Below are positions 20,920 through 36,437 of a stretch of 36,493 nt of DNA, piece by piece; the stretch's first letter is position 1; the number at the start of each line of letters is the position of its first letter. The notes under the pieces are model-generated. The model was not told the DNA's origin and searched no databases. It worked only from the letters and a program-made list of their open reading frames with translations. The DNA lies in the IMG/VR virus record IMGVR_UViG_3300047392_000269, positions 1 to 36,493 of that record, one strand, 5' to 3'. The position numbers and the translations under genes were made by a program. The DNA is from a virus.

Positions 20920-22854
20920 TTATGCAGATATATCTACAAGCTCGCAGTTGCCATCTGAGCTACATGCAAGGGTGGCGGTTGGAGAAGTTCCATCTTCTGT
21001 TTCATAGAATGATAAATCTTCCCATCGAATATTTTTTGGCATCTTAGAAAGAAGCTCATCATATTCTTCTTTTGAAACTTCCTGATAAGGAGCTTGCTTA
21101 TATGTGTGATCTGAATGAGGTAGGAATGAAATTCCAGAAACTTCATCAAAATTCTTGTAAACCCAAGCTCCAACTTCCATCCATTCATCTTCTTTTACGG
21201 AAACAGTAATTGATGGCTTGTGCTCACACCATGCACGTTGGTAAACAAGCCAAATATTCAAATGATCAATAGCGGTTAGGTCATTCCTAACAATTGCACC
21301 TTCTGGTGCTTTTACTGGAAATGAAAAAACATATGTTTCATTTGGCTTCATTACATCATCTTCTACTGGAATTCCAACTTCCTTTAAGAAAACTGAAATA
21401 GGATCATTTTTTGATCCACGTACAGTGCGAATGTAATATGGTGAATGCCATGGATGCATTCCTGAAGATACCCCGACCAATTGGGATACTGTTCCAGAAG
21501 GCTTTACACAAGTAATAGCTGCAGACTCAGGAATCCCAATTTTCCCTGCCTCTTCTTTATTAACTTCTCTTGCCCTATCACGCATAGACATTAGAAATGC
21601 TTCTAGTGCAACAATGTCCTGTTTACCAGACATAAATTTATGACCAAACTGCCCAGTCAAAGAAACTCCAAGAAGTCTTTCTTCTTCTGTGTTATCTTTC
21701 CAAATTTTACGAAGATACTTAAAGTCTGTAAGTGTTGATTGCCAAGTTCCAAGGATAGTTGCTAGCTCTACTTTTCTTTGGATATCTTTCTTTGTATCCT
21801 CTTCACGCAAAACAACTTCTGAAAGGTTGCAGAACTGATAGGGACGAAGAATAATTTCAGAGCATGGGTTCGTTCCATAATGAATCTCTGGGTCTCTGCG
21901 ACCAAATTTTGCTGCTTGTGCTTGTGCTGCAGCTACATTGTAAATACCACGTTCTCCAGACTTAGAATCATAAAGCGATTTCCATTCTGCAATAAACTGT
22001 TCCATTTCTGGTTTGCGAGAATAAGCAACTGAGTTATTAGACAAAGCACGTTGTGTATTGCCTTCCCACCAATTACCAGCTTTCGCCTGAGCCATTTCAA
22101 TATCATTAATATTGGAAAGTGAAATCATTGCAGAACGTCTAACTCCACCAACAACAACTACTTCACCAATCTTACACATAATATCATGACATTCAATTGG
22201 CTTTAAATTTCTTCCTGCTGCACCTTTAAATTTAGCAATAGTGAAATCAAAAAGATTTACAAGTGGCTGAGGACCAGAAGATCTTCCTCCCATTGTCTTA
22301 AGTCTTGCTCCAGCTGGTCTAACTTTTGTAACATCAATTGCTGGAATGTGTCCAGTCCAAAGTAATGCAAGTAGTTCACGATAAGCTTTTGCCCATCCTT
22401 GTTTAGAATCTTCTACAACAATAACTGTGTCTGATTTTTCAAGTTTTTCTGGGACGGCGGGAAGCTTATTAATATACTTGTATTCAACTGAAAATCCCAC
22501 ACCTGTTCCGCACATCAAAACATACATTGTCTCATCAAAAGAACGTGGGGAATCTACTGGCAAAAAAGCACAGTTATAGCCTGCTACATTATCTCTTTCA
22601 AGTGCAGCGCCAGATGTCATTACAGATCTCATTGATGGCATTACATTTCGTTGAAAGACAAACTCTTTTAATTCCGCAACTAGCTTTTCATTTGGAATGT
22701 AATTATGATTTTTTTCTAGGTGATCAGTCATGAAAGAAAAATATCTATCTACTGTCTCTCCCCATGTTTCTCTGCGTCCTTCTGCTTCTACCCATTTAGC
22801 GTATCTTGATAGTGCAATAAAGTTTTCATAAGGATTTTCAATAGTATTTTTCAT
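20920..22854 (-). CDS. nrdJ: Adenosylcobalamin-dependent ribonucleotide reductase (class II, RTPR type)
   Basis: 644 aa. It reduces ribonucleotides to deoxyribonucleotides for phage DNA synthesis using coenzyme B12 and needs no separate small subunit. The active-site residues are in place. C95 (AGYNCAFLP) and C342 (YQFCNL) are the redox pair. C331 (NPCSEI) is the thiyl radical site, with E333 two residues on and an 11-residue C-to-C spacing as in the Lactobacillus enzyme. C631 and C637 in the tail (ACSSDGNCEL) are the reductant pair. The stretch between C95 and C331 is about 50 residues shorter than in the bacterial enzyme. RBS AAGG. Confidence 0.95.
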   Translation of the reverse strand: MKNTIENPYENFIALSRYAKWVEAEGRRETWGETVDRYFSFMTDHLEKNHNYIPNEKLVAELKEFVFQRNVMPSMRSVMTSGAALERDNVAGYNCAFLPVDSPRSFDETMYVLMCGTGVGFSVEYKYINKLPAVPEKLEKSDTVIVVEDSKQGWAKAYRELLALLWTGHIPAIDVTKVRPAGARLKTMGGRSSGPQPLVNLFDFTIAKFKGAAGRNLKPIECHDIMCKIGEVVVVGGVRRSAMISLSNINDIEMAQAKAGNWWEGNTQRALSNNSVAYSRKPEMEQFIAEWKSLYDSKSGERGIYNVAAAQAQAAKFGRRDPEIHYGTNPCSEIILRPYQFCNLSEVVLREEDTKKDIQRKVELATILGTWQSTLTDFKYLRKIWKDNTEEERLLGVSLTGQFGHKFMSGKQDIVALEAFLMSMRDRAREVNKEEAGKIGIPESAAITCVKPSGTVSQLVGVSSGMHPWHSPYYIRTVRGSKNDPISVFLKEVGIPVEDDVMKPNETYVFSFPVKAPEGAIVRNDLTAIDHLNIWLVYQRAWCEHKPSITVSVKEDEWMEVGAWVYKNFDEVSGISFLPHSDHTYKQAPYQEVSKEEYDELLSKMPKNIRWEDLSFYETEDGTSPTATLACSSDGNCELVDISA

Positions 22855-24025: not shown

Positions 24026-24218
24026 TTTAGAAGATAACCTTTCAATGGTTAGCTACATAATGTTGCATAGAATTTATGATTTGCTTACATTGATAGCAGA
24101 TAAAGTTGCTGGATCAGAAAATACTCAAAAAATGATTTCATATCACGAAGCAGGATATTTACTAGGACCAGTTCCTGCATTTTCTCCAGCAGAAAATGAA
24201 GATGATATCCAGAACTAA
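23994..24218 (+). CDS. Small helical protein
   Basis: 74 aa from the ATG at 23994 (GGTGGGAAG upstream). A start 30 nt earlier is possible. It contains LSMVSYIMLHRIYDLLTLIADKVAG, an amphipathic helix of a type often seen in small actinophage proteins, and an acidic C-terminus. The gene ends 22 nt into the methyltransferase gene. Function unknown. Confidence 0.6.
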   Translation: MQEDQKAETSNLEDNLSMVSYIMLHRIYDLLTLIADKVAGSENTQKMISYHEAGYLLGPVPAFSPAENEDDIQN

Positions 24219-24831
24219 TGTTTGGGCAAATGACGAAGCCTTTAAAAAAACTTTTAAAGATTTTATGTCAATAGATGGCTTTGACAATTCAATAGAAGAT
24301 CCAATAAATGAAAGGCTGTACTTGCTACAACAATTTGCAAAAAGACAAACATCTTTAGATTCAAATTTTGTTGAAATTGGAGTATATGCAGGAATGTCAA
24401 TGTTTTTTATGGCAGACTATTGCACACAATCTTTTATTGGCATTGATTCTTTTGAAGGCGTGTCAGAGCCAACTCCAGGGGTAGACACCGATTACTTTAA
24501 AAAAGGTTTGCTTGCTTGTGATAAATCAACTGCAGACAGGTACTTGTCTAGATTCAACAATATAGATTTAATAAAAGGATGGGTCCCAGATATCCTTGAG
24601 ACTTTACCAGATATTAAATATTCTTTAGTGCATATAGATGTAGATCTTTATCAGCCTACCAAGGAATGTATAGAATATTTTTGGGATAAGCTTTTGCCAA
24701 ACGGAGTTTTAGTATGTGATGATTTTGGATCAAGTAAAACAGTTGGGGCTAAAAAAGCAATGGTAGATTTTTTTGGTAGAGACAATATAATTGAATTTAG
24801 TACGCAACAAGCTTTTGTAATAAAGTATTGA
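24196..24831 (+). CDS. TylF-like SAM-dependent methyltransferase 1
   Basis: 211 aa. The Rossmann motif I is FVEIGVYAGMS (58-68). IGIDSFEGVSEP follows, then HIDVDLYQPT (146-155) and GVLVCDDFG (170-178), which bind the metal and SAM in the macrocin O-methyltransferase (TylF) family. Members methylate hydroxyl groups of sugars and of glycan chain ends. It partly resembles the second methyltransferase at 26437. Its start overlaps the preceding gene. It may cap a surface glycan or modify a phage component. Confidence 0.85.
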   Translation: MKMISRTNVWANDEAFKKTFKDFMSIDGFDNSIEDPINERLYLLQQFAKRQTSLDSNFVEIGVYAGMSMFFMADYCTQSFIGIDSFEGVSEPTPGVDTDYFKKGLLACDKSTADRYLSRFNNIDLIKGWVPDILETLPDIKYSLVHIDVDLYQPTKECIEYFWDKLLPNGVLVCDDFGSSKTVGAKKAMVDFFGRDNIIEFSTQQAFVIKY

Positions 24832-24961: not shown

Positions 24962-25099
24962 ATGGCTAGAGATCACTTTGCAAAGTTTATGGCAAGCCCA
25001 CAGTTTAATCATAACTGTGATGGAAGCTGTAAAGTTGATGGCCATCAGAAAAAAGAATCAATTTTAGAAAAACTATTTAAGAGGGTTGGTAAAAAATAA
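24962..25099 (+). CDS. 45-aa hypothetical protein
   Basis: 45 aa with a small Cys/His cluster (FNHNCDGSCKVDGH) and a basic C-terminus. An extended -10 (TGATATAAT) directly after the upstream terminator puts the start of transcription at or a few nt before the ATG. The stop overlaps the next start as TAATG. It is too short for a fold assignment; metal binding is possible. Confidence 0.6.
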   Translation: MARDHFAKFMASPQFNHNCDGSCKVDGHQKKESILEKLFKRVGKK

Positions 25100-25947
25100 T
25101 GTTCTATGACAGAGAAGATTGCATCAAAGCTTCATTTTTCCCAGATGACTACGGGACACCTAGCGGAGTTTTTATTTTTAAAGGATTTTTTACTGACGAA
25201 GAATGCAAGATGGTCGAAGATGCTTTGGCGGACTATGATTTTAAAGATAAATATAAAGATACACTTATTAGCTGGTATGCAAATAAAGTTAGCCCACCAT
25301 TGCAGCCAATTCACCAGCTTTGGGAAAAAGCAAGCGAGCTTTTATACCCAGAGTATGTAATGCACCCACAGGCTAACGTTCTTATTATAACTCCAGAGAT
25401 GAATGAAGGAATGTTTACTCATTCAGATTCTCCTGGAAAAGGCGAATGCCATAGATTGTCACAGGTTGACGTATGGAAAACATGCTGCGAGCTTGACTAT
25501 GGCCTAGTGGGCTATTTTGGAGATTTTGAAGGCGGAGAAATCTTTTATGTAAATATTGACAAAAATGGAAATAAAGTAGATGCTGTTTCAGAAGACAATC
25601 GTTTAACAATTAAGCCAGAACGAGGAGATCTTGTCATCCATGGTGCATTTTCTCCACATGCTCATGGAGTAAAGCCAGTAACTTCTGGAAAACGATATGC
25701 GTTCTCTAACTTTGTATTAAAGGCAGAAGATAATCCAGGAACATTCTATAATTATAAGACTCCTGAATATTATGAGCAGATTAAAGATAAGGATAAATTA
25801 ACTCTTAGAGAGTTTGTCAATATCTGGATGCAGCCTCTAAAAGAAAACCCTCAGTTTACTAGAGAGCTAATTGACCTATATCAGGCATCTGGATTAGAAG
25901 GCGAAGAATTATCCGAAAAATTTATGCACAACTTTAAAGAGCATTAA
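25099..25947 (+). CDS. 2-oxoglutarate/Fe(II)-dependent oxygenase 7
   Basis: 282 aa. The iron triad is H108-x-D110 (FTHSDSP) and H189 (PHAHGVKP), with R199 (SGKRYAFSNF). GYFGDFEGGEIFY is the strand motif, and the insert DKNGNKVDAVSEDN before LTIKPERGD is distinctive. It is on the opposite strand to the other six and lies with methyltransferase genes. It is coupled to the 45-aa gene upstream by TAATG. It probably hydroxylates a protein or small molecule; the substrate is unknown. Confidence 0.9.
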   Translation: MFYDREDCIKASFFPDDYGTPSGVFIFKGFFTDEECKMVEDALADYDFKDKYKDTLISWYANKVSPPLQPIHQLWEKASELLYPEYVMHPQANVLIITPEMNEGMFTHSDSPGKGECHRLSQVDVWKTCCELDYGLVGYFGDFEGGEIFYVNIDKNGNKVDAVSEDNRLTIKPERGDLVIHGAFSPHAHGVKPVTSGKRYAFSNFVLKAEDNPGTFYNYKTPEYYEQIKDKDKLTLREFVNIWMQPLKENPQFTRELIDLYQASGLEGEELSEKFMHNFKEH

Positions 25948-28366: not shown

Positions 28367-28380
28367 CCGTGTTTAATTTG

Positions 28381-28455
28381 TAGGAGCACTGAGATTTGAA
28401 CTCAGGATCTTTTGTATATAAGACAAATGCTTTCACCAGACTAAGCTATACTCCC
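28381..28455 (-). tRNA. tRNA-Ile (anticodon UAU)
   Basis: The 75-nt cloverleaf folds by hand. Acceptor GGGAGTA pairs with TGCTCCT with a G-U first pair. D stem is GCTT/AAGC, anticodon stem TTTGT/ACAAA with loop CTTATAT, and T stem CTGAG/CTCAG with TTCAAAT. No CCA is encoded. It reads AUA, a codon common in this AT-rich phage. Confidence 0.85.
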
Positions 28456-28593: not shown

Positions 28594-28724
28594 TCATATT
28601 TTAGTCAACTAGTATTTCAAATTTCTAAAAATGTTAATAAATTTTTAATTTGTATGATACACACATTCTAGAGAAACGGACATTTAGGATAGTCCGCACA
28701 TATTGAGCATGAGAGCCTAGAGAA

Positions 28725-28740
28725 TGTGATGAGCATCACA
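28725..28740. promoter_or_regulatory. CRP-type palindrome
   Basis: TGTGATGAGCATCACA matches TGTGA-N6-TCACA perfectly. It lies 63 nt upstream (start to start) of the TTGTCA of the promoter at 28788, the same distance as the pair at 29972/30035. Confidence 0.75.
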
Positions 28741-28787
28741 AACTATTTTTTTAATATGTCCGACATGTCCGTTTTGCGACTTGATAT

Positions 28788-28810
28788 TTGTCAGACCCCT
28801 GTGTTAATCT
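28788..28810 (+). promoter_or_regulatory. TTGTCA-N11 type promoter
   Basis: TTGTCA at 28788-28793, spacer GACCCCTGTGT, -10 TAATCT at 28805-28810. It precedes the gene at 28843. Confidence 0.65.
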
Positions 28811-28842
28811 TTATATATAAAGTTAAAGAGAAAGGAATTCAA

Positions 28843-28983
28843 ATGAATTCAATTTTTGAAGGTGGCACAATGAGTGCCGATGAGTATGCTCGATTCGTAG
28901 AGCGCATGGGCGATGCTCGATGCGCTGAGTGTGGATGGTGTGGCTATATCCATAATCCTTACACTTGCTCTAAGTCTAAGTGA
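28843..28983 (+). CDS. Small Cys-rich protein
   Basis: 46 aa from the ATG at 28843 (RBS AGAAAGG). A 39-codon extension upstream is open but covers the promoter. CAECGWCGY and a late CSK form a Cys cluster, possibly metal binding. The next CRP-type palindrome overlaps its stop codon. Confidence 0.65.
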   Translation: MNSIFEGGTMSADEYARFVERMGDARCAECGWCGYIHNPYTCSKSK

Positions 28984-28994
28984 TAGACATCACA
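28979..28994. promoter_or_regulatory. CRP-type palindrome overlapping a stop codon
   Basis: AGTGATAGACATCACA matches the consensus at every half-site base but the first. It overlaps the TGA at 28981-28983 and starts 32 nt upstream of the TTGTCA at 29011. Confidence 0.65.
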
Positions 28995-29010
28995 TCAAAT
29001 AGCCTTGTAA

Positions 29011-29033
29011 TTGTCACCCTAGTGTGATACCTT
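29011..29033 (+). promoter_or_regulatory. TTGTCA-N11 type promoter (weak -10)
   Basis: TTGTCA at 29011-29016, then CCCTAGTGTGA and TACCTT. The -10 is poor, but the position matches the family. It drives the operon starting at 29069. Confidence 0.45.
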
Positions 29034-29068
29034 AATCTTATTGAACTACTAACGAAAGAAGAAAGCAA

Positions 29069-29278
29069 ATGACATACGCAAGCGATTCAATCTATGGACA
29101 CGGCTACTCTAAGTATGACACTATTCAAGATGATGTAGCAGATATGTACATCGAAGATGTAGAAGATGTAGTAGATGAAGATGATGACATCTTCGGTTTC
29201 TCTAAGTCTATTGAGATTGACCACCTCACAGATGAAGAAGTTGATACAGTACTAGCAATGTTTGGAGATAATAACTAA
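29069..29278 (+). CDS. Acidic 69-aa protein, first gene of a six-gene micro-operon
   Basis: 69 aa, strongly acidic (DVEDVVDEDDDIFGF). RBS AAAGAAGAAAG. The stop overlaps the next start as TAATG. This coupling recurs five times down to 29873. An acidic DNA-mimic role is conceivable but not supported directly. Confidence 0.65.
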   Translation: MTYASDSIYGHGYSKYDTIQDDVADMYIEDVEDVVDEDDDIFGFSKSIEIDHLTDEEVDTVLAMFGDNN

Positions 29279-29343
29279 TGGCACTACTACTAACTACCGC
29301 CACCCTAATATTCACAGTAGCACAAATGAAAGCAGGTAAGTAA
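29278..29343 (+). CDS. 21-aa hydrophobic peptide
   Basis: 21 aa: a short hydrophobic stretch (MALLLTTATLIFTVAQ) ending MKAGK, like a membrane micropeptide. It is coupled on both sides by TAATG. Confidence 0.5.
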   Translation: MALLLTTATLIFTVAQMKAGK

Positions 29344-29465
29344 TGGGATATATTGAATTTGCTCGTATAGATAATAATGGTGTAGAGTGGGTGCCACTAG
29401 ATAAGGCAACACCTAGCGAACTGCTAGACTTTGAAATAGCACTACTACAAGAAGGAGCAATCTAA
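29343..29465 (+). CDS. 40-aa hypothetical protein
   Basis: 40 aa with IEFARIDNNGVEWVPLDKAT and a short helix. TAATG coupling on both sides. Function unknown. Confidence 0.55.
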   Translation: MGYIEFARIDNNGVEWVPLDKATPSELLDFEIALLQEGAI

Positions 29466-29620
29466 TGACTATCACTTACTCACTATGGCAAGGTAGCCAA
29501 TTACTAAGCGTTAATAATAAGGCTAATAAGCCCGAAGAAATCTTAGCCGTAATCGAAGAATTAAATAAACTAGGTAAGGGATTTTCTTTTATTGTTAGAG
29601 AAGTAGAGGTAAATAAGTAA
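29465..29620 (+). CDS. 51-aa hypothetical protein
   Basis: 51 aa, alpha/beta looking (TYSLWQGSQLL, PEEILAVIEELNKLGKGFSF). TAATG coupling. Function unknown. Confidence 0.55.
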   Translation: MTITYSLWQGSQLLSVNNKANKPEEILAVIEELNKLGKGFSFIVREVEVNK

Positions 29621-29754
29621 TGACTACATGCAAGGTAATCGGATGCGATTCAACAGAACTAGTATATAGCGGAGTAGATGCGTTTCTACTAGGATGTAAT
29701 ACAGAAGAGATTTGCTACACACATGCTAACCAATACTCTAGGGAGAATGCATAA
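29620..29754 (+). CDS. 44-aa Cys-rich protein
   Basis: 44 aa with four Cys and one His (TTCKVIGC, LLGCNTEEICYTH), a candidate small zinc finger. TAATG coupling. Confidence 0.6.
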   Translation: MTTCKVIGCDSTELVYSGVDAFLLGCNTEEICYTHANQYSRENA

Positions 29755-29873
29755 TGAACCGACTACTTACTAGCCTAGTACAGATTGCTATTGGTATTCC
29801 CGCCCTATACATGGGGCGCCTTATGTGGCGGGAGATCGTAGCCGATTTCCGAGAGTGGGATAAATCACACTAG
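29754..29873 (+). CDS. 39-aa membrane micropeptide
   Basis: 39 aa. The hydrophobic helix LLTSLVQIAIGIPALYMG is followed by a charged amphipathic tail. Last gene of the micro-operon. Confidence 0.55.
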   Translation: MNRLLTSLVQIAIGIPALYMGRLMWREIVADFREWDKSH

Positions 29874-29890
29874 CCTAGCGGCGTGTAGCC

Positions 29891-29919
29891 TTGACAGATC
29901 AGGGCGGCACGCCCACATA
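29891..29919 (+). promoter_or_regulatory. TTGACA-N17-CACATA element 1
   Basis: TTGACA at 29891-29896 and CACATA at 29914-29919. It is 81 nt upstream of the CRP-type palindrome at 29972. CACGCCC and GGGCGTG nearby can pair, overlapping a likely terminator at 29908-29937. Confidence 0.5.
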
Positions 29920-29937
29920 GCTACGGGGTCGGGCGTG
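29908..29937 (+). terminator. Possible hairpin terminator after the micro-operon
   Basis: CACGCCC pairs with GGGCGTG across a 16-nt loop. There is no strong U-run, so the call is weak. Confidence 0.4.
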
Positions 29938-29971
29938 TCGTTATGAAAGAGTTATAAAACCCCTGGAATTT

Positions 29972-29987
29972 TGTGATATTAATCACA
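29972..29987. promoter_or_regulatory. CRP-type palindrome
   Basis: TGTGATATTAATCACA, a perfect TGTGA-N6-TCACA, preceded by CCCCTGGAATTT. It starts 63 nt upstream of the TTGTCA at 30035. Confidence 0.8.
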
Positions 29988-30034
29988 TGGCACACGCTCC
30001 ACATATTGAGACAAATGCGTGTCGGATTAACACT

Positions 30035-30057
30035 TTGTCAGCCCTATCCGCTATAAT
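30035..30057 (+). promoter_or_regulatory. TTGTCA-N11-TATAAT promoter
   Basis: TTGTCA 30035-30040 and TATAAT 30052-30057. It drives the gene at 30089. Confidence 0.75.
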
Positions 30058-30088
30058 ATCACCATAACCAAACGAAAGGTGACAACTC

Positions 30089-30283
30089 ATGTCAGCAAAT
30101 GCATACTCTATCGAATCCCTACTAGTGGGAACACAATACTACTCTAACACTTTGCAGGGAGAAATTATCTCAGCAGAGAAGCACCCTCATGCCGTATGGT
30201 ATGACGGCGCAGAGGCTTACCTTGTAGAGGTACGCAAGCCAATGGGTGGCTATGCGTTCCGTACAGTAGCGGTCAATTCATAA
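30089..30283 (+). CDS. 64-aa hypothetical protein
   Basis: 64 aa, beta-rich (IISAEKHPHAVWYDGAEAYLVEVRK). RBS CGAAAGG. It stands alone behind its own promoter, with the next promoter starting right after its stop. Function unknown. Confidence 0.65.
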   Translation: MSANAYSIESLLVGTQYYSNTLQGEIISAEKHPHAVWYDGAEAYLVEVRKPMGGYAFRTVAVNS

Positions 30284-30284
30284 C

Positions 30285-30307
30285 TTGTCAGACCCCTACG
30301 CTATACT
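30285..30307 (+). promoter_or_regulatory. TTGTCA-N11-TATACT promoter
   Basis: TTGTCA 30285-30290 and TATACT 30302-30307, beginning 2 nt after the upstream stop. No CRP-type site is seen here. Confidence 0.7.
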
Positions 30308-30338
30308 ATCCCTATAACCAACTAACGGAAGGTCAAAA

Positions 30339-30434
30339 ATGACACTTGAAGAATTCAAGGCTTATGTTGAAGCCCGCCAAAAAATCTCTTTAGAAGAGGC
30401 ACTTGCAAAACTAACACCACGAAAGGAAAACTAA
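30339..30434 (+). CDS. 31-aa hypothetical peptide
   Basis: 31 aa, helical and charged (LEEFKAYVEARQKISLEEAL). RBS GGAAGG. TAATG coupling to the next gene. Confidence 0.55.
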   Translation: MTLEEFKAYVEARQKISLEEALAKLTPRKEN

Positions 30435-30643
30435 TGTATAAAATAACTTTATCTTATGACGGAAATGCCCCACATTGGCAACAAGATTATTCCAACGAGT
30501 TTGACGCTTGGAAAGATTTTTTTGCTTTTGTTGATTGGGGATTTGCTAACGAATACTCAACTGTAAATCTTTATAATTCAGAAATGAAATGTTTTACTCG
30601 CCACTTTTATCGTGAAGAAAGAAAGGTCGTAACTGTAAAATGA
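30434..30643 (+). CDS. 69-aa hypothetical protein
   Basis: 69 aa, aromatic-rich (YSNEFDAWKDFFAFVDWGF). TAATG overlap upstream and ATGA overlap downstream. Function unknown. Confidence 0.65.
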   Translation: MYKITLSYDGNAPHWQQDYSNEFDAWKDFFAFVDWGFANEYSTVNLYNSEMKCFTRHFYREERKVVTVK

Positions 30644-30834
30644 TGACACGAAAAGACTATGTAGCAACTGCAGAAATTTTAAAGTATGCAAGCAATAAAA
30701 CGCACCCTGCGTTATTTTCTAAAATTGTAAATGATTTTGCAGAAATGTTTGCAAAAGATAACCCTCGCTTTGATGTTGTAAGGTTTCATGAAGCAAGTAA
30801 CTACACAACAATTTTTGGAAAGGTTGAAAAATGA
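30640..30834 (+). CDS. 64-aa hypothetical protein
   Basis: 64 aa; the start may be Met1 or Met2 (ATGATG). It contains RKDYVATAEILKYASNKTHP, a pattern I have seen in phage proteins, with no assigned function. ATGA overlap on both sides. Confidence 0.65.
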   Translation: MMTRKDYVATAEILKYASNKTHPALFSKIVNDFAEMFAKDNPRFDVVRFHEASNYTTIFGKVEK

Positions 30835-30974
30835 TTTTAGAAATGTCTGCAATTTATTGCGAAGCATGCCAAGACTCTGCGTTTATCGTACAACATGAAG
30901 ATATGATAGAAATTTCTGCGTGTTCATGCGAGCAAGATTTACAAGAATTAGCGGAGTGGATAAATGAGCCTTAA
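30831..30974 (+). CDS. 47-aa zinc-ribbon-like protein
   Basis: 47 aa with CEAC and CSC motifs separated by about 20 residues, and an acidic tail. It overlaps both neighbours. Confidence 0.6.
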   Translation: MILEMSAIYCEACQDSAFIVQHEDMIEISACSCEQDLQELAEWINEP

Positions 30975-31086
30975 AGATAAAGTAAAACGCATACAGGAAT
31001 TGCGCCGTAGCAATGCGGCGCAACCTGTACGTAATAAAAAGAAATATAGGCGCAAGGTTAAACACAAGGGGAAAGATTATTTATAA
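30964..31086 (+). CDS. 40-aa highly basic protein
   Basis: 40 aa, rich in Lys/Arg (RIQELRRSNAAQPV, KKKYRRKVKHKGK). It looks like a nucleic-acid-binding or RNA-binding peptide. It overlaps the upstream gene by 11 nt. Confidence 0.6.
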   Translation: MSLKDKVKRIQELRRSNAAQPVRNKKKYRRKVKHKGKDYL

Positions 31087-31174
31087 TTTAATTGGGTCCA
31101 TTGGTGGATCATTAATAATTATTATTGCGTTGACTCCAATTGCTGTTGCATTTTATATCTTTTCAAAAATGTAG
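31076..31174 (+). CDS. Possible membrane micropeptide with non-ATG start
   Basis: An open frame of 32 codons with one hydrophobic helix (LIIIIALTPIAVAFYIF) ends at TAG 31172-31174. No ATG/GTG/TTG start is in frame. ATT at 31076 behind AAGGGG is the only candidate, so it is tentative. Confidence 0.3.
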   Translation: MIYNLIGSIGGSLIIIIALTPIAVAFYIFSKM

Positions 31175-31186
31175 CTGCGTGTCGAT

Positions 31187-31215
31187 TTGACAAGATCTAG
31201 GCAATCCCGCACATA
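31187..31215 (+). promoter_or_regulatory. TTGACA-N17-CACATA element 2
   Basis: TTGACA 31187-31192 and CACATA 31210-31215. CCCGCACA pairs with TGTGTGGG here (31207-31222). It is 80 nt upstream of the palindrome at 31267. Confidence 0.5.
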
Positions 31216-31266
31216 TGTGTGGGGGCAAAACCTGGTTTAAGTCAAGCTTTGACACACCCTGGAATT

Positions 31267-31282
31267 TGTGAAGTTTATCACA
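31267..31282. promoter_or_regulatory. CRP-type palindrome
   Basis: TGTGAAGTTTATCACA, preceded by CCCTGGAATT. It starts 53 nt upstream of the TTGTCG at 31320. Confidence 0.8.
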
Positions 31283-31319
31283 TAAAAACACTTGCGACAC
31301 GCCGATAATGGATTGGTTA

Positions 31320-31342
31320 TTGTCGGTGCAACACGCTATAAT
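31320..31342 (+). promoter_or_regulatory. TTGTCG-N11-TATAAT promoter
   Basis: TTGTCG 31320-31325 and TATAAT 31337-31342, then ACTCTC. It drives the genes at 31372 and 31629. Confidence 0.75.
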
Positions 31343-31371
31343 ACTCTCATACCAACAACGAAAGGCTAAAA

Positions 31372-31626
31372 ATGTCAGATACACTTCAGTTTACTTTATT
31401 TCCGTTTACATATCAGGGAGTTAATTTTGTGTCCCGTATTTCTCAGGACTCCCGTTTCTATCCACAAATTATGTCTATGGGTCAAGCGTTTATTGATATG
31501 AATATTGCAGCGATTAACGATTGCATGCCCGACCTAGCGTCACTTACTATTGATGAATTAAATGAGCAACTTGCTTTCATTAACGACGGCGGAACAGAAA
31601 TGTTTCTAGAATTGGCAGGTGAATAA
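31372..31626 (+). CDS. 84-aa hypothetical protein
   Basis: 84 aa (LFPFTYQGVNFVSRISQDSR, then acidic helices). RBS CGAAAGG. It precedes the 97-aa gene by 2 nt. Function unknown. Confidence 0.65.
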   Translation: MSDTLQFTLFPFTYQGVNFVSRISQDSRFYPQIMSMGQAFIDMNIAAINDCMPDLASLTIDELNEQLAFINDGGTEMFLELAGE

Positions 31627-31628
31627 TA

Positions 31629-31922
31629 ATGGGACTTACTACTGCGCTAGACCTTGAAGAAAACCTATCACTAGATGCTGGACTTGCTTATCACTTACAG
31701 GCTAATCATTACCCACCCGTCCCCGTTGCTATGGTTCAGCCTTGCATAGATGCTATTGATGCATACTATGATGAAGACTATGACCGCTTGATCGAATTGC
31801 CTGGTGACATTACCTGGCGAGGTCAGTCCTCTGCTCCAGCATCGGCTATTGCAGAAGCTCACCATCTTGAAGCGTGGCTACCTCACGCTCATTACTGCGA
31901 CTGCGAAGATTGTGTGATTTAA
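31629..31922 (+). CDS. 97-aa acidic protein
   Basis: 97 aa, ending HAHYCDCEDCVI, a Cys/His-rich tail that could bind metal. The CRP-type palindrome at 31913-31928 overlaps its last codons and stop. Function unknown. Confidence 0.65.
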   Translation: MGLTTALDLEENLSLDAGLAYHLQANHYPPVPVAMVQPCIDAIDAYYDEDYDRLIELPGDITWRGQSSAPASAIAEAHHLEAWLPHAHYCDCEDCVI

Positions 31923-31928
31923 TTCACA
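31913..31928. promoter_or_regulatory. CRP-type palindrome overlapping a stop codon
   Basis: TGTGATTTAATTCACA is a perfect TGTGA-N6-TCACA. It contains the TAA of the upstream gene and starts 33 nt before the ATGTCA at 31946. Confidence 0.75.
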
Positions 31929-31945
31929 CACACAGGGCTAGACAA

Positions 31946-31968
31946 ATGTCAGACCCCACTGCTATAAT
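31946..31968 (+). promoter_or_regulatory. ATGTCA-N11-TATAAT promoter
   Basis: ATGTCA 31946-31951 with GACCCC following, TATAAT 31963-31968. Confidence 0.75.
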
Positions 31969-31999
31969 ACTCCAATAACAACTAGAAAGAAGGAAGCAA

Positions 32000-32176
32000 A
32001 TGACACTAAATGGATACACATACAAGGTCGGAGATTTATTCACAACCTTGAAGTCAAAGAAGACAGGCGTAATCAAAGAGATTATTCCAAACGCATCTGG
32101 CTCGGTGCGTGTATTGCTAGAAATGCCAACAAAGGAAACTCGTTGGACAACAGTTAGCAACGAAGCCCTAGTATAA
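32000..32176 (+). CDS. 58-aa hypothetical protein
   Basis: 58 aa, SH3/KOW-like beta pattern (YKVGDLFTTLKSKKTGVIKEI, VRVLLEMPTKETRWTTVSN). Such small barrel proteins often contact RNA or DNA. RBS AGAAGGAAG. Fold inferred by eye. Confidence 0.6.
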   Translation: MTLNGYTYKVGDLFTTLKSKKTGVIKEIIPNASGSVRVLLEMPTKETRWTTVSNEALV

Positions 32177-32196
32177 ATAAATGCAGGGCTCACCGC

Positions 32197-32219
32197 TTGT
32201 CGGTGGGCTCTGCTACAAT
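32197..32219 (+). promoter_or_regulatory. TTGTCG-N11-TACAAT promoter
   Basis: TTGTCG 32197-32202 and TACAAT 32214-32219. The hexamer lies in the loop of a CACCG/CGGTG inverted repeat. No CRP-type site is seen. Confidence 0.7.
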
Positions 32220-32254
32220 ACTCATAACATCAACCAACCAACGAAAGAGGAAAA

Positions 32255-32656
32255 ATGTCAAGAGCGTTATCAGTTAAGGTAGCAACACCAAAGGTCATCA
32301 AGGCACTTGAGGCAAAGTTAGAGGCTGGCACAAAGGCTATCGCTAACAATGAAAAAAAGCGCAAGGAATACGAGAAGACAGAAAAGGTTTGGGCTAAAGA
32401 AGTTGCAGACCTAGTAATCAAGCAGATTGCAAAGGCAGAAGTTTCTGCTAATGAAAACTGGCGTGGTGAAGTTTCAGTTAATTTCTCAGTTCCAGCAGGT
32501 GCAATTAAGTTGCCCGAGAAGCCAAGCATTGACTTGGAGCAGGAACTTGGTCGCTATGAAGTTCAAGAGATTGAGAACGCAATTCGTATTCTCAAGATGA
32601 CAGATGAGGAAACAGTAAATGCCTCAACCTTCAAGTCAATCGCACAGTATCTCTAA
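32255..32656 (+). CDS. Coiled-coil protein of 133 aa
   Basis: 133 aa. The Lys/Glu-rich helix at about 15-60 (VIKALEAKLEAGTKAIANNE) is followed by a beta segment (GEVSVNFSVPAGAIKLP) and a helical end. RBS AAAGAGG. Function unknown. Confidence 0.7.
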   Translation: MSRALSVKVATPKVIKALEAKLEAGTKAIANNEKKRKEYEKTEKVWAKEVADLVIKQIAKAEVSANENWRGEVSVNFSVPAGAIKLPEKPSIDLEQELGRYEVQEIENAIRILKMTDEETVNASTFKSIAQYL

Positions 32657-32672
32657 ATAAATACAACGACCT

Positions 32673-32707
32673 GAGCAAGTCGCCAAACTGCTCACACCTT
32701 CGGGTGT
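32673..32707 (+). other. Paired hairpins: GAGCA/TGCTC and a UUCG tetraloop
   Basis: GAGCA (32673-32677) and TGCTC (32689-32693) can pair. ACACC-TTCG-GGTGT (32694-32707) is a stable UUCG hairpin. The first hairpin recurs at 34201-34221 with identical spacing. It lies 17 nt after the upstream stop. Confidence 0.55.
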
Positions 32708-32729
32708 CCCTACTAACAAAGGCAACAAA

Positions 32730-32957
32730 ATGCGTTTCAAGATTGAAATGTACGACGAAGTAAAAGCAAATGATTTAACAATCTATTCAGATGAAGGCTA
32801 TGACAATGAAAGTCTTAAGCAATTAGTTTTCTCTAACCTCAAGCGGTTTGATGGAAATGTTAAAGCGTTTGTATATGATAGAGAGAATAAGAAAAAAACA
32901 TCAGCTGCTTTCTTTCCGATGGAAACAGTTAACTTTGTAAAATCTTTAACAAAGTAA
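32730..32957 (+). CDS. 75-aa hypothetical protein
   Basis: 75 aa, alpha/beta (RFKIEMYDEVKANDLTIYSD, VKAFVYDRENKKK). No clear promoter of the TTGTCA type lies in front. It is probably cotranscribed with the coiled-coil gene. Function unknown. Confidence 0.6.
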   Translation: MRFKIEMYDEVKANDLTIYSDEGYDNESLKQLVFSNLKRFDGNVKAFVYDRENKKKTSAAFFPMETVNFVKSLTK

Positions 32958-32962
32958 AACTT

Positions 32963-32986
32963 GGGGCGGGATCTGAATCCCGCCCC
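32963..32986 (+). terminator. Rho-independent-like terminator
   Basis: GGGGCGGGAT pairs perfectly with ATCCCGCCCC around CTGA. The following sequence is only weakly T-rich. It lies 5 nt past the 75-aa gene. Confidence 0.8.
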
Positions 32987-33021
32987 ATCTTAAAATTTGA
33001 GATGCCCGTAGAGGTGCGGGG

Positions 33022-33051
33022 TTTTCCACAGGTTTAAGAGGGTTATCCACA
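33022..33051. other. Two DnaA-box-like sequences 21 bp apart
   Basis: TTTTCCACA at 33022-33030 and TTATCCACA at 33043-33051. The second matches the DnaA-box consensus TTATNCACA. They lie in a gene-free 200-bp gap after a terminator. With only two boxes, an origin is a hypothesis. Confidence 0.45.
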
Positions 33052-33064
33052 ACCCCTGAAATTT

Positions 33065-33080
33065 TGTGAGATTGATCACA
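33065..33080. promoter_or_regulatory. CRP-type palindrome
   Basis: TGTGAGATTGATCACA, preceded by CCCCTGAAATTT. It starts 53 nt upstream of the ATGTCA at 33118, the same distance as at 31267/31320. Confidence 0.8.
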
Positions 33081-33117
33081 TGGATCAATTCGGACATATT
33101 GCGTTTAATCCTTTACA

Positions 33118-33140
33118 ATGTCAGACCACCCTGCTATACT
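33118..33140 (+). promoter_or_regulatory. ATGTCA-N11-TATACT promoter of the DUF932 gene
   Basis: ATGTCA 33118-33123 and TATACT 33135-33140, then an RBS CGAAAGG for the gene at 33168. Confidence 0.75.
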
Positions 33141-33167
33141 TACAACTAATCTAACGAAAGGTAAAAA

Positions 33168-34175
33168 ATGGCTCACAATCTCGAAGTTGAAAATGGCGAA
33201 GTTGCTTTCGCTCTCCGTGGTGCTCCTGCTTGGCATAACCTTGCAAATCGCATCTTCACACAAGATGAGGAAGTTACAACTGCAACAATGCTTGAAGAAG
33301 CAAAGTTAGCAAATTGGAATGTTCGTCTTTCTCCAATCGCTGAGCATATTCCAGATACGTGGAACGATGTATCTACTGCATCCCTTGTGTTGCGTGACAA
33401 TCCATTCAGTGGCGGAACTGATGTTCTTGCTACTGTTGGTAAGCGCTACAAGCCTGTGCAAAATGAAGAATTGTTTGCATTTGCTGATGCAATTCACGAT
33501 GCAGACCCTAACTGCCGTTGGGAATCTGCTGGTTCTCTTAAGAAAGGCAAAGTTGTGTTTGGAACTGTTGATATTCCTCGCACAATGGTTCTTGACCCAC
33601 AAGGTGCAAATGATGAGACAAAACTTTATCTTATCGTTTGGACGTCACACGATGGTTCTGTTGCTGTTCAAGCAGCGGTTACTCCTGTTCGTGTTGTATG
33701 CCAAAACACTTTGAATCTTGCAATGCGTAATGCAAAGCAATCTTTCAAAATTCGTCATACGCAATCTGTTGATGGTCGCATCCAAGTTGCTCGTGAGACT
33801 CTTGGCCTTGCTCTTGGTTACTTTGACCAATTCGAAATTGAAGCAAAAGCAATGTTTGAACAATCAATCACTGATGCTGAATTTTCAAAGTTGATTCAGA
33901 CAATTTATCCAAAGCCTGACAAGGATGCTGCAAAAGTTGCGCTGACTAAATGGGAAAATAAAGTTGTCCTATTGGATGACCTTTACCATAACTCACCAAC
34001 TAATGCTACAATCAAGGGCACAAAGTGGGGTGCATTCAATGCACTTACTGAGCGCCTAGATTATTATCGTTCAGGGCGTGGAAACTCTGAAACACTCATG
34101 GCGGGTGCATCAGGGTTTGACCCAATTCTTACCGCTGAAAAAAATAAAATTATGAAGTTGGTTAAAGCCTTCTAA
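33168..34175 (+). CDS. DUF932 phage/plasmid-like protein (TIGR03299-like)
   Basis: 335 aa. The start AHNLEVENGEVAFALRGAPAWHNLA followed by VGKRYKPVQNEELFAFADA and TPVRVVCQNTLNLAMRNAK matches the DUF932 family of phage and plasmid proteins. Members occur in many mobile elements and have unknown biochemistry. The gene is the longest in this region and has its own CRP-type site and promoter, which suggests high or controlled expression. RBS CGAAAGG. A tRNA-Asp follows. Confidence 0.9.
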   Translation: MAHNLEVENGEVAFALRGAPAWHNLANRIFTQDEEVTTATMLEEAKLANWNVRLSPIAEHIPDTWNDVSTASLVLRDNPFSGGTDVLATVGKRYKPVQNEELFAFADAIHDADPNCRWESAGSLKKGKVVFGTVDIPRTMVLDPQGANDETKLYLIVWTSHDGSVAVQAAVTPVRVVCQNTLNLAMRNAKQSFKIRHTQSVDGRIQVARETLGLALGYFDQFEIEAKAMFEQSITDAEFSKLIQTIYPKPDKDAAKVALTKWENKVVLLDDLYHNSPTNATIKGTKWGAFNALTERLDYYRSGRGNSETLMAGASGFDPILTAEKNKIMKLVKAF

Positions 34176-34200
34176 ATAATAAATAAAACTAAATAATCCT

Positions 34201-34221
34201 GAGCATGATGTAAAACTGCTC
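34201..34221 (+). other. GAGCA/TGCTC hairpin before the tRNA
   Basis: GAGCA (34201-34205) and TGCTC (34217-34221) pair with the same spacing as the copy at 32673-32693. It lies between the DUF932 gene and tRNA-Asp and might mark a processing site. Confidence 0.5.
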
Positions 34222-34226
34222 ACCAT

Positions 34227-34303
34227 GATCTCTTAGCTCAATTGGTTAGAGCGCTACCCTGTCACGGTAGAGGTTGCGAGTTCAAGTCTCGTAGGGATCG
34301 CCA
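34227..34303 (+). tRNA. tRNA-Asp (anticodon GUC)
   Basis: The cloverleaf folds by hand. Acceptor GATCTCT pairs with AGGGATC. D stem is GCTC/GAGC, anticodon stem CTACC/GGTAG with loop CTGTCAC, and T stem GCGAG/CTCGT with TTCAAGT. The discriminator is G, as usual for Asp. The next three bases are CCA, so the 3' end is probably encoded. Confidence 0.95.
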
Positions 34304-34313
34304 GCGTGTCGGC

Positions 34314-34342
34314 TTGACAAAATTGATCGGATGCCCGCATAT
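34314..34342 (+). promoter_or_regulatory. TTGACA-N17-GCATAT element 3
   Basis: TTGACA 34314-34319 and GCATAT 34337-34342, just after the tRNA. Third member of the set. Confidence 0.45.
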
Positions 34343-34349
34343 TTGAGGG

Positions 34350-34365
34350 TATGAGATATATCATA
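34350..34365. promoter_or_regulatory. Variant palindrome TATGA-N6-TCATA
   Basis: TATGAGATATATCATA replaces the TGTGA-N6-TCACA site, at 52 nt (start to start) from the TTGTCA at 34402. Others lie at 53. It could be a lower-affinity or altered-specificity site. Confidence 0.45.
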
Positions 34366-34401
34366 CGACACGACAAAAAAAGCCCTGGAATCTGTAGACA
34401 T

Positions 34402-34424
34402 TTGTCAGTGGGGTCCGCTATAAT
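34402..34424 (+). promoter_or_regulatory. TTGTCA-N11-TATAAT promoter (leaderless)
   Basis: TTGTCA 34402-34407 and TATAAT 34419-34424; ACTCTC then gives ATG at 34431, exactly 6 nt later. Confidence 0.75.
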
Positions 34425-34430
34425 ACTCTC

Positions 34431-35054
34431 ATGCAAACAACCAACGGAACTAAATATACATTTGTCTGTGACCCAGATGAATGCGACACATTGATCGAAG
34501 TAACTTGTGTTTCAGGATTCGATTTTCCAAATGGTGTGATTAAACACACATGCCCCTGTGGTAGAGAAATGTCATACATCTCTGCTACAATACTCTCATC
34601 AGAACAACCAACGAAAGAGGAAAACATGGAAACAAATACACCGCAGGTCATGACACTTGATTGGGTCGAAAACGATGTAGTTACAAGCAAAACTTATACT
34701 GAATCAGATGTTCGTCATATGGTTTGGGTTAATAAGAATTTAACAAATAAGCAGAACGAGTGGTTTAAGAAAGAATCACAACTTCGCACATTTATTCATG
34801 ACAACTTTGAGAATTCAGAAGACCAAGAAGCGCTTACTGAAATCGCAGAGATGTTTGACATTCCTTTAACTAAGGAGATTGAAGTAACTGTTTGGGTTCG
34901 TGTTGATGCAACTGTTGAGGTTGAACTATCAGGCGGAGATTCATTTGATGCGGTTGAAGATTTTATTTCTCAGAACTTGACTGTTGATTCATATGGTTCA
35001 GAGATGTCTGTAAATAACTTTGAAATTGAGCGATGCGAAGAAGGTGCATACTAA
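34431..35054 (+). CDS. 207-aa protein whose reading frame runs through an internal promoter
   Basis: 207 aa if read from the leaderless ATG at 34431. Residues 1-50 hold a Cys-rich part (FVCDPDECDTL, HTCPCGREMSY), a possible zinc ribbon. Residues 51-65 are the translation of a complete TTGTCA-type promoter and RBS (CGAAAGAGG), with an in-frame ATG at 34626. Residues 66-207 form a second, acidic domain (VTVWVRVDATVEVELSGGDSF). It may be a fusion of two genes that lost the stop between them, and two products are likely. Function unknown. Confidence 0.7.
   Translation: MQTTNGTKYTFVCDPDECDTLIEVTCVSGFDFPNGVIKHTCPCGREMSYISATILSSEQPTKEENMETNTPQVMTLDWVENDVVTSKTYTESDVRHMVWVNKNLTNKQNEWFKKESQLRTFIHDNFENSEDQEALTEIAEMFDIPLTKEIEVTVWVRVDATVEVELSGGDSFDAVEDFISQNLTVDSYGSEMSVNNFEIERCEEGAY
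34535..34550. promoter_or_regulatory. CRP-type palindrome inside coding sequence
   Basis: TGTGATTAAACACACA differs from TGTGA-N6-TCACA at one half-site base. It lies 34 nt upstream of the ATGTCA at 34569, close to the 32- and 33-nt cases. Confidence 0.55.
34569..34591 (+). promoter_or_regulatory. ATGTCA-N11-TACAAT promoter inside coding sequence
   Basis: ATGTCA 34569-34574 and TACAAT 34586-34591, then ACTCTC and an RBS before the in-frame ATG at 34626. The downstream layout is nearly identical to the promoter at 32197-32219. Confidence 0.7.
34626..35054 (+). CDS. 142-aa in-frame internal product
   Basis: This is the C-terminal part of the 207-aa frame, from an ATG with RBS CGAAAGAGG and its own promoter. 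It begins METNTPQVMTLDWVEND and holds a helical then beta-rich domain. This may be the original gene. It overlaps the next gene as TAATG. Confidence 0.65.
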   Translation: METNTPQVMTLDWVENDVVTSKTYTESDVRHMVWVNKNLTNKQNEWFKKESQLRTFIHDNFENSEDQEALTEIAEMFDIPLTKEIEVTVWVRVDATVEVELSGGDSFDAVEDFISQNLTVDSYGSEMSVNNFEIERCEEGAY

Positions 35055-35257
35055 TGTATTTCGAACTCACCGCTCCCTCTCAGTTAGCCTTTGCACGGGC
35101 TACCTGGGAGGCTGAGATGATTGGGCTAGACCCACAGAGAATTGCACCATTGACTTTCAACATTGGAACTGGTAGTATTGAGAAAGTGAGTCGTATTCGT
35201 GATAAGTATAATCTAACAGAATCATACGTATCAGAATATGAGCCAACAGGTTACTAG
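35054..35257 (+). CDS. 67-aa hypothetical protein
   Basis: 67 aa from the ATG at 35054 (TAATG overlap). A 7-codon upstream extension exists but is less likely. It has LAFARATWEAEMIGLDPQRI and a GTGSIEKVSRI segment. Function unknown. Confidence 0.6.
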   Translation: MYFELTAPSQLAFARATWEAEMIGLDPQRIAPLTFNIGTGSIEKVSRIRDKYNLTESYVSEYEPTGY

Positions 35258-35265
35258 GAGATAAT

Positions 35266-35412
35266 ATGTCAGATTATAAAGATGGTTTTGATGACGGGTA
35301 TAGATTTGCTCGTGAAGAGATGATGGAGAAGCTTTCAGAGATTGATATTGCTGATATCGACTCTTGGATTCTTGACCGTCTTTCTGAAATGATTGAAGGT
35401 GGGTCGCTATGA
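35266..35412 (+). CDS. 48-aa acidic helical protein
   Basis: 48 aa, starting SDYKDGFDDGYRFAREEMMEK. Short acidic proteins of this kind are common in phages. RBS TAGGAG. ATGA overlap with the next gene. Confidence 0.6.
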   Translation: MSDYKDGFDDGYRFAREEMMEKLSEIDIADIDSWILDRLSEMIEGGSL

Positions 35413-35606
35413 CAGAATGGATCGGCTGTGATAAATGTAATTCAGTAGTACCTGCAATGTATCTTGTTAAGATGGTTAGCGGCGAGCTTGCATTCTGCGG
35501 GCACCATTTTAATAAGTTCAAGCCAAGCCTTGACAAGATAGCCTATGAAGTAGTAGAATTAAACAAAAAAGAAGAGACACCTCAACTAGTAGAAATGGCG
35601 GAATAA
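35409..35606 (+). CDS. DUF7455-like zinc-ribbon protein
   Basis: 65 aa. CDKCNSVVPAMYLVKMVSGELAFCGHH resembles the DUF7455 family of actinobacterial and actinophage proteins (CDxC, then CxHH as metal ligands). The end is acidic. The family match supports an actinobacterial host. Role unknown. Confidence 0.65.
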   Translation: MTEWIGCDKCNSVVPAMYLVKMVSGELAFCGHHFNKFKPSLDKIAYEVVELNKKEETPQLVEMAE

Positions 35607-35608
35607 AC

Positions 35609-36010
35609 ATGGGAGACCGTGCTAACTTTGGATTCACACAATCTAATGGAGAAACAATTGTAGTATATGGACACTGGGCTGGAGCAGGCATGCTGGACCT
35701 TCTAGCACGTGCAGTCGACAAAGCCCGTCCTCGTTGGAACGATGAATCATATGCAACACGTATTGCTATCTCTAATCTAATTCAAGACGAGTGGACCAGC
35801 GAAACAGGTTGGGGCCTGCAGGTAAATCAACGTTCAGATAATGAGCACAAAATTCCTATCATTAATTTTGATAAGAATGAATTTAGTCTTCATGAAGAAG
35901 CACCATTTAGCGATGAGAATCGAATTAAAGGTGTACAGGATGAAGCGCTATTCACAATGGACCTTGAGGCATTCATTCAAAAGTATGCTAGGGAACTAAT
36001 ACTAAACTAA
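35609..36010 (+). CDS. 133-aa conserved phage protein (MGDRANFGF start)
   Basis: 133 aa. The start MGDRANFGF followed by VVYGHWAGAG is a motif I recognise from many phage and bacterial proteins of unknown function with an MGDRANxxxx start and a later YxHWxG. It lies 2 nt after the zinc-ribbon gene. The next gene is behind a 300-bp gap. Confidence 0.75.
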   Translation: MGDRANFGFTQSNGETIVVYGHWAGAGMLDLLARAVDKARPRWNDESYATRIAISNLIQDEWTSETGWGLQVNQRSDNEHKIPIINFDKNEFSLHEEAPFSDENRIKGVQDEALFTMDLEAFIQKYARELILN

Positions 36011-36114
36011 TTAATAACTATGGTGCCCCTAAAGAGTTGCACAACGCAGCAAGGGGTTAAATAATGCAGGGTTTTTTACTTTCGTTGGTTAATCCCTAGC
36101 AGCCTTAGCAAAGC

Positions 36115-36143
36115 TTGACAAATGCCGATCTATGGCCCACAAA
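36115..36143 (+). promoter_or_regulatory. TTGACA-N17-CACAAA element 4
   Basis: TTGACA 36115-36120 and CACAAA 36138-36143. It lies 83 nt upstream of the palindrome at 36198, compared with 81 and 80 for elements 1 and 2. Confidence 0.45.
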
Positions 36144-36197
36144 AAATAAGGGTAATATATTTTGTTTAAGAAGTCAATATAAATTCGCCTGAAATTC

Positions 36198-36213
36198 TGT
36201 GATATTGATCACA
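36198..36213. promoter_or_regulatory. CRP-type palindrome
   Basis: TGTGATATTGATCACA, preceded by GCCTGAAATT. It starts 82 nt upstream of the ATGTCA at 36280. The inverted repeat AAGGTGC/GCACCTT lies just after it. Confidence 0.8.
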
Positions 36214-36237: not shown

Positions 36238-36279
36238 GATGATCAATGTGGCGGGAATCACAAGAGCTTTCTATTCCAA

Positions 36280-36302
36280 ATGTCAGTGGTCTCATATATA
36301 AT
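36280..36302 (+). promoter_or_regulatory. ATGTCA-N11-TATAAT promoter (leaderless)
   Basis: ATGTCA 36280-36285 and TATAAT 36297-36302; ATG follows after TCTCAT at 36309, again 6 nt. Confidence 0.7.
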
Positions 36303-36308
36303 TCTCAT

Positions 36309-36437
36309 ATGACAACAAGATGCAATATGTGTATGGAAGAATTGGACTATAGCGATTATGTCCATGTATGTCCTGAATGTTTAACTGATGATTACTTAAT
36401 GGATTTGTCAGTCCCCTCTGATACAATAACTCTCTAA
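36309..36437 (+). CDS. 42-aa zinc-ribbon peptide overlapping the next promoter
   Basis: 42 aa with CNMC and CPEC pairs, a four-Cys ribbon. Codons for the last ten residues (LSVPSDTITL) are the next TTGTCA-N11-TACAAT promoter, so promoter and protein share sequence. Leaderless start; a longer frame to 36246 would cover the promoter and is rejected. Confidence 0.65.
   Translation: MTTRCNMCMEELDYSDYVHVCPECLTDDYLMDLSVPSDTITL
36405..36427 (+). promoter_or_regulatory. TTGTCA-N11-TACAAT promoter inside coding sequence
   Basis: TTGTCA 36405-36410 and TACAAT 36422-36427, inside the end of the 42-aa gene. It precedes the gene at 36451 with RBS CGAAAGG. Confidence 0.7.

Follow-up and report, generated by a model that had tools for sequence, protein, structure and literature searches.

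What switches on the small genes at the right end of the virus record IMGVR_UViG_3300047392_000269 (IMG/VR)? The window analysed here is the whole stretch of this record, 36,493 nucleotides (36.5 kb). Its leftward arm contains structural and ribonucleotide reductase genes, and from about 28.8 kb on small genes make up a rightward arm. An earlier note on this DNA had pointed to nine palindromes, TGTGA-N6-TCACA or near matches, in the rightward arm, and had proposed that they are sites of a CRP/GlxR-type protein responding to cyclic AMP (cAMP), placed on one face of the helix as for activation. We find that such palindromes mostly lie whole helical turns upstream of a rigid class of phage promoters throughout a lineage of related phages, which suggests that early genes are switched on via host regulators.

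Palindromes and promoters of the right arm

All nine palindromes were found where the earlier note had placed them, six of them exact, two with one mismatch and one with two, and each start-to-start distance to the (T/A)TGTC(A/G) hexamer was as reported (Table 1). Between positions 28600 and 36493 the six exact sites compare with 0.015 expected from 200 first-order Markov simulations (maximum 1). At one mismatch or fewer, nine sites compare with 0.38 expected (maximum 3 in 200 such simulations); the ninth, at 36247-36262, is absent from the earlier list. At two mismatches or fewer the count for the whole window is unremarkable and not significant (26 against 20.8 expected), so the signal resides in the exact sites and their placement.

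The hexamer, read as TTGTCA, had served as the anchor of these distances. It is not a -35 box, because it sits only 10-11 bp upstream of the -10 element; at several sites it reads ATGTCA or TTGTCG, and it proved to be part of a rigid promoter unit, (A/T)TGTCAG-N10-TA(T/C)AAT, usually with TGC immediately before the -10. In a survey of 80 related viral contigs (DUF932 relatives; 984 promoters, 1.34 Mb) a gap of 10 between TGTCAG and the -10 occurred 902 times, against 80 for the next gap, and nearly always on one strand. TGTCAG falls at about -28 to -23 as a fixed spacer element, and TATAAT is a -10 of the sigma-70 type. A sigma-54 promoter was considered and rejected: it requires GG-N10-GC, but the logo is dominated by TATAAT. 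The -35-like sequence is weak and somewhat better at palindrome-bearing promoters; the mean best match to TTGACA at 16-19 bp was 3.67 of 6 positions with a palindrome and 2.74 without, the controls giving 2.78 and 2.61. In complete-length relatives 12-16 of these promoters are gathered in a single cluster about 10 kb long.

Helical phase of the palindromes in related phages

The link of the palindromes to promoters, and their CRP/GlxR type, were borne out by the related contigs, in which the exact consensus recurs and a palindrome with at most one mismatch was found 40-140 bp upstream of the -10 at 609 of 984 promoters. These promoters cover most of the 839 such sites in the 1.34 Mb. Distances from palindrome to -10 peak at 50, 59-61, 69-71 and 79-81 bp, and separate scans across the whole viral collection gave the same peaks. 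When all pentamer palindromes with gaps of 2-12 were compared, TGTGA-N6-TCACA ranked first (89 of 267 non-redundant upstream regions); the runner-up, in 25 regions, was largely the same site shifted, and the shuffled mean was 0.03. The combination of CRP site and promoter was present in at least 119 viral contigs, that of a composition-matched control palindrome in none.

The same-face spacing noticed in the window also holds in the relatives. Of the 91 non-redundant exact sites, 80 deviate from a multiple of 10 by no more than 1 bp, and the best period is 10.5 bp (R 0.82). Because non-redundant regions still share ancestry, a further count took each orthologue group at each turn as a single unit; the resulting 25 units had a phase coherence of 0.73, matched by none of 20000 random draws.

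Individual promoters behave differently in this respect. Orthologues of the DUF932 promoter carry the palindrome at 69-70 bp in 80 of 80 cases and those of promoter 30036 at 79-81 bp in 65 of 72; it is absent from all 78 orthologues of promoter 32198. Elsewhere orthologous promoters differ in turn (50, 60 or 70 bp at one gene, 60, 71 or 81 at another, 60 or 70 at a third; for promoter 31947 the distances are 50, 59-60 or 69-70), and those at different turns sit on different surrounding DNA. Whole turns are kept where the rest of the DNA differs, so that selection seems to act on the phase itself, and the pattern is the one expected from selection for an activator held on a constant helical face.

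Upstream cassettes are visibly common to several promoters and hairpins lie upstream of some, which would suit palindromes without a role of their own, hitch-hiking on recombined intergenic cassettes or forming terminator hairpins in RNA. However, the half-sites are 94-100% conserved, far above the N6 spacer (59-83%) and the flanks (66-84%), the same turn recurs amid unrelated flanking DNA, and whole-turn DNA spacing is not predicted by RNA folding. Phase and half-site conservation do not fit the hairpin or terminator reading of the palindrome, which was rejected, and this kind of explanation as a whole is scarcely credible.

Source of the regulator and proposed activation

As the earlier note had remarked, no CRP-family gene is visible. 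The window has no match to cNMP_binding (PF00027), and in profile searches of gene content neither this domain nor HTH_Crp_2 (PF13545) was matched in 15 relatives of 105-120 kb, the 14 control genomes being positive in 10 and 14 cases, respectively. No class III cyclase was detected in the 15 relatives. Because the relatives encode no detectable CRP-family domain or class III cyclase, the regulator would be host-supplied.

A phage-encoded regulator of some other protein family might bind the palindromes instead. Most of the phage genes are of no known function, and a sub-threshold helix-turn-helix resembling sigma region 4 occurs in frames of about 50 residues in seven of the 15 relatives (G001 23258, G003 9574, G004 59011 and others). 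This motif is not universal, however, and the palindrome has the exact CRP/GlxR consensus in its 16-bp layout, with an adjoining box (below) that is the exact consensus of DnaA; both are host factors. Taken with the lack of a CRP-family gene in any of the 15 relatives, this makes a phage regulator decidedly unlikely.

The reading we prefer is that a host CRP/GlxR-family regulator binds the palindromes and activates the early-gene promoter cluster from upstream; we give it a probability of about 0.74. The palindrome fits the GlxR consensus TGTGANNTANNTCACA, and GlxR is described as mostly an activator (PMC4254451). Class-I activation by CRP has a periodicity of 10.5 bp (PMC6301791), and the phage spacing of 50, 60, 70 and 80 bp is upstream and helically periodic with the same period. 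From this arrangement we infer that the host possesses a CRP that would bind these sites and act positively on a cluster that is probably early. Host RNA polymerase would read the TGTCAG-N10-TATAAT promoters, and a CRP dimer bound whole turns upstream would stabilise the polymerase in a class-I-like manner, most simply via the C-terminal domain of the alpha subunit; cAMP would tune the effect of host CRP/GlxR on the cluster.

Several observations weigh against activation by host CRP. The whole-turn upstream spacing of the CRP-type layout proposed earlier stands, but its register departs from that of Escherichia coli, where class-I optima are at -61.5, -71.5 and -82.5 and a site at -64.5 gives weak activation only (PMC6301791). 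Palindrome centres in the phages are not near these optima but 2-3 bp off them, at about -54.5, -64.5, -74.5 and -84.5, the shift being uncertain as the start was placed 12 bp from the first base of the -10; that study (PMC6301791) measured no class-I position as close as -54.5. About 38% of the promoters in the relatives have no palindrome at one mismatch or fewer, and a class at exactly 65 bp, half a turn out, is maintained in two to three groups of genes (e.g. L134, L146, L147, L124, L132). The case as a whole is built on phage sequence.

Host CRP could also bind and repress the early genes, linking infection to host metabolism. The pir, dam and recE promoters of phage T1 are repressed by cAMP-CRP (PMC6737242), and repression by looping can likewise depend on phase. 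Sites 50-100 bp upstream of the -10, clear of the promoter and in whole-turn phase, are nevertheless the pattern of an activator, and we consider repression decidedly unlikely.

DnaA boxes behind the CRP sites

Analysis of the DNA upstream of the palindromes revealed a second element, which the earlier note had missed. The top 9-mer there is TTATCCACA, the DnaA-box consensus. It occurs 383 times in 1.33 Mb, where chance would give about 16, and in 313 cases an exact palindrome follows downstream within 120 bp. Of 106 palindromes in non-redundant regions, 59 have exact boxes behind them at distances of 20-23 and 41-44 bp, roughly two and four turns; the proximal box occurs in either orientation. 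Paired boxes are 21 bp apart if direct and 23 bp if opposed; direct pairs are unable to form a hairpin with each other. Promoters of the 65-bp class have DnaA boxes in seven of seven non-redundant cases, against one of 17 at 59-61 bp. In the window, one array of DnaA boxes, CRP site and promoter (33023-33140) precedes the DUF932 gene. Phased predicted DnaA boxes behind CRP sites are new here.

Host DnaA would be required, because no DnaA C-terminal domain was found in the window or the 15 relatives. The arrays may be composite enhancers that read host DnaA and CRP, both in helical register with the phage promoter, and would then tie early transcription to replication and energy state; we put this forward tentatively, at somewhat less than even odds.

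With DnaA boxes at so many palindromes, and with the cluster corresponding to the terminal-repeat region of Streptomyces relatives, palindromes and boxes could instead belong to a replication origin or to packaging sequences and not regulate transcription. That several promoters in each genome have the arrays, in register with each -10, and that many palindromes have no DnaA box, makes such a role for both elements highly improbable; the boxes by themselves may have an origin function.

Three further observations concern these elements. Some 1.5 kb past the promoter cluster, two DnaA boxes at a distance of 12 bp are conserved and possibly mark an origin (G001 55080/55092, G002 19198/19210, G009 30008/30020). 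The 9-mer GGCGTGTCG/CGACACGCC is also enriched upstream (448 copies in 1.33 Mb), and GGCGTGTCG showed no single register relative to the palindrome. In one virus contig without proteins of the window lineage (L283), DnaA boxes are accompanied by several palindromes of the TGTGACGG type.

Features of the window

Table 1. Features of the right arm; distances (bp) run from the start of the palindrome to the start of the (T/A)TGTC(A/G) hexamer and of the -10
Feature	Position	Strand	To hexamer	To -10	Remarks
CRP-type palindrome TGTGATGAGCATCACA	28725..28740	none	63	80	exact; weak -10 (TAATCT, 28805)
CRP-type palindrome AGTGATAGACATCACA	28979..28994	none	32	49	1 mismatch; weak -10-like TACCTT (29028), weakest promoter of the set
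CRP-type palindrome	29972..29987	none	63	80	exact
Promoter TGTCAGCCCTATCCGCTATAAT	30036..30057	+			TGTCAG-N10-TATAAT
Promoter TGTCAGACCCCTACGCTATACT	30286..30307	+			no palindrome
CRP-type palindrome	31267..31282	none	53	70	exact
Promoter TGTCGGTGCAACACGCTATAAT	31321..31342	+			
CRP-type palindrome	31913..31928	none	33	50	exact
Promoter TGTCAGACCCCACTGCTATAAT	31947..31968	+			
Promoter TGTCGGTGGGCTCTGCTACAAT	32198..32219	+			no palindrome
DnaA-box-like TTTTCCACA	33023..33031	+			distal; predicted from sequence
Exact DnaA-box consensus TTATCCACA	33043..33051	+			22 bp upstream of palindrome start
CRP-type palindrome	33065..33080	none	53	70	exact
Promoter TGTCAGACCACCCTGCTATACT of DUF932 gene	33119..33140	+			
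DUF932 gene	33168..34175	+			PF06067, E 1.3e-55; downstream of best conserved promoter
Degenerate palindrome TATGAGATATATCATA	34350..34365	none	52	69	2 mismatches; TGTGATTTTAATCATA at 69 in homologues
Promoter TGTCAGTGGGGTCCGCTATAAT	34403..34424	+			2-mismatch variant only
CRP-type palindrome	34535..34550	none	34	51	1 mismatch
Promoter TGTCATACATCTCTGCTACAAT	34570..34591	+			
CRP-type palindrome	36198..36213	none	82	99	exact
Promoter TGTCAGTGGTCTCATATATAAT	36281..36302	+			
Promoter TGTCAGTCCCCTCTGATACAAT	36406..36427	+			no palindrome

The window also contains a gene for tRNA-Asp(GTC) at 34227-34303 (+), directly upstream of promoter 34403, and one for tRNA-Ile(TAT) at 28380-28455 (-). Further genes encode a TylF-like methyltransferase (24196-24831), a 2OG-Fe(II) oxygenase-like protein (25099-25947) and ribonucleotide reductase (20920-22854).

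Lineage and likely host

No near DNA match to the window was found among annotated phages. Its DUF932 protein is about 50% identical to Streptomyces phage proteins (Stanwilliamsviridae) and its ribonucleotide reductase about 65% identical to that of Stanwilliamsviridae of Streptomyces; judged by these two proteins, the phage is placed near that group. The scans of the whole viral collection represent one lineage, not many, because at least 166 of their 169 loci have proteins in common with the window.

WhiB is an actinobacterial marker. Because its gene is present in 15 of 15 relatives of 105-120 kb and, among the 14 control genomes, in Corynebacterium glutamicum only, the host of the lineage is likely an actinobacterium. 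The phages of this widespread lineage are freshwater phages. WhiB is also a candidate for the factor that reads TGTCAG. Candidatus Nanopelagicales as host is a guess from habitat and low guanine-plus-cytosine content, for which the backing is the general literature on freshwater actinophages; CRP goes unmentioned in a paper describing the first complete acI genomes. When 84,980 genomes of bacteria and archaea were scanned for the composite arrangement, one match was obtained, in Planctobacterium marinum, and it was judged to be due to chance.

Comparison with known systems

If the proposal is true, a dominant freshwater phage group ties its takeover to a regulator of host energy (CRP) and perhaps to one of replication (DnaA), and the start of infection, in bacteria that rank among the most abundant in fresh water, depends on the physiology of the host. 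The geometry of CRP activation is less known in actinobacteria than in E. coli, and the orthologous promoters at 50, 60, 65, 70 and 80 bp amount to a natural experiment on its helical-phase rules in actinobacteria.

Like E. coli class-I promoters of the lac type, the phage promoters have TGTGA-N6-TCACA upstream at several whole-turn positions with a period of about 10.5 bp; unlike them, they are 2-3 bp out of that register, use one additional close position (near -54.5) and combine TGTCAG, as a fixed spacer element, with a -35 box that is weak or absent. The consensus is shared with the GlxR/CRP regulons of C. glutamicum (GlxR) and Mycobacterium tuberculosis (CRP), and an actinobacterial host is likely here too, but here a phage carries the sites and repeats them, at fixed turns, before many promoters belonging to one cluster. 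Yaboi, a member of the Stanwilliamsviridae, has a related DUF932 gene (annotated DUF945) in its terminal-repeat cluster; its genome contains neither an exact palindrome nor a cluster of TGTCAG-N10-TATAAT.

Middle promoters of phage T4 combine a MotA box near -30 with a -10. There, as here, a fixed phage-specific element near the -10 replaces or supplements the -35 box; unlike in T4, the element is TGTCAG at N10 spacing, and no MotA-like protein was identified in this analysis. For CRP sites in phage early promoters, no matching precedent was found in the open-licence literature except phage T1. As in the pir circuit of T1, the phage is predicted to read host cAMP-CRP directly; unlike in T1, where CRP represses, the sites, present at about ten promoters in each genome, suggest activation by their position and phase.

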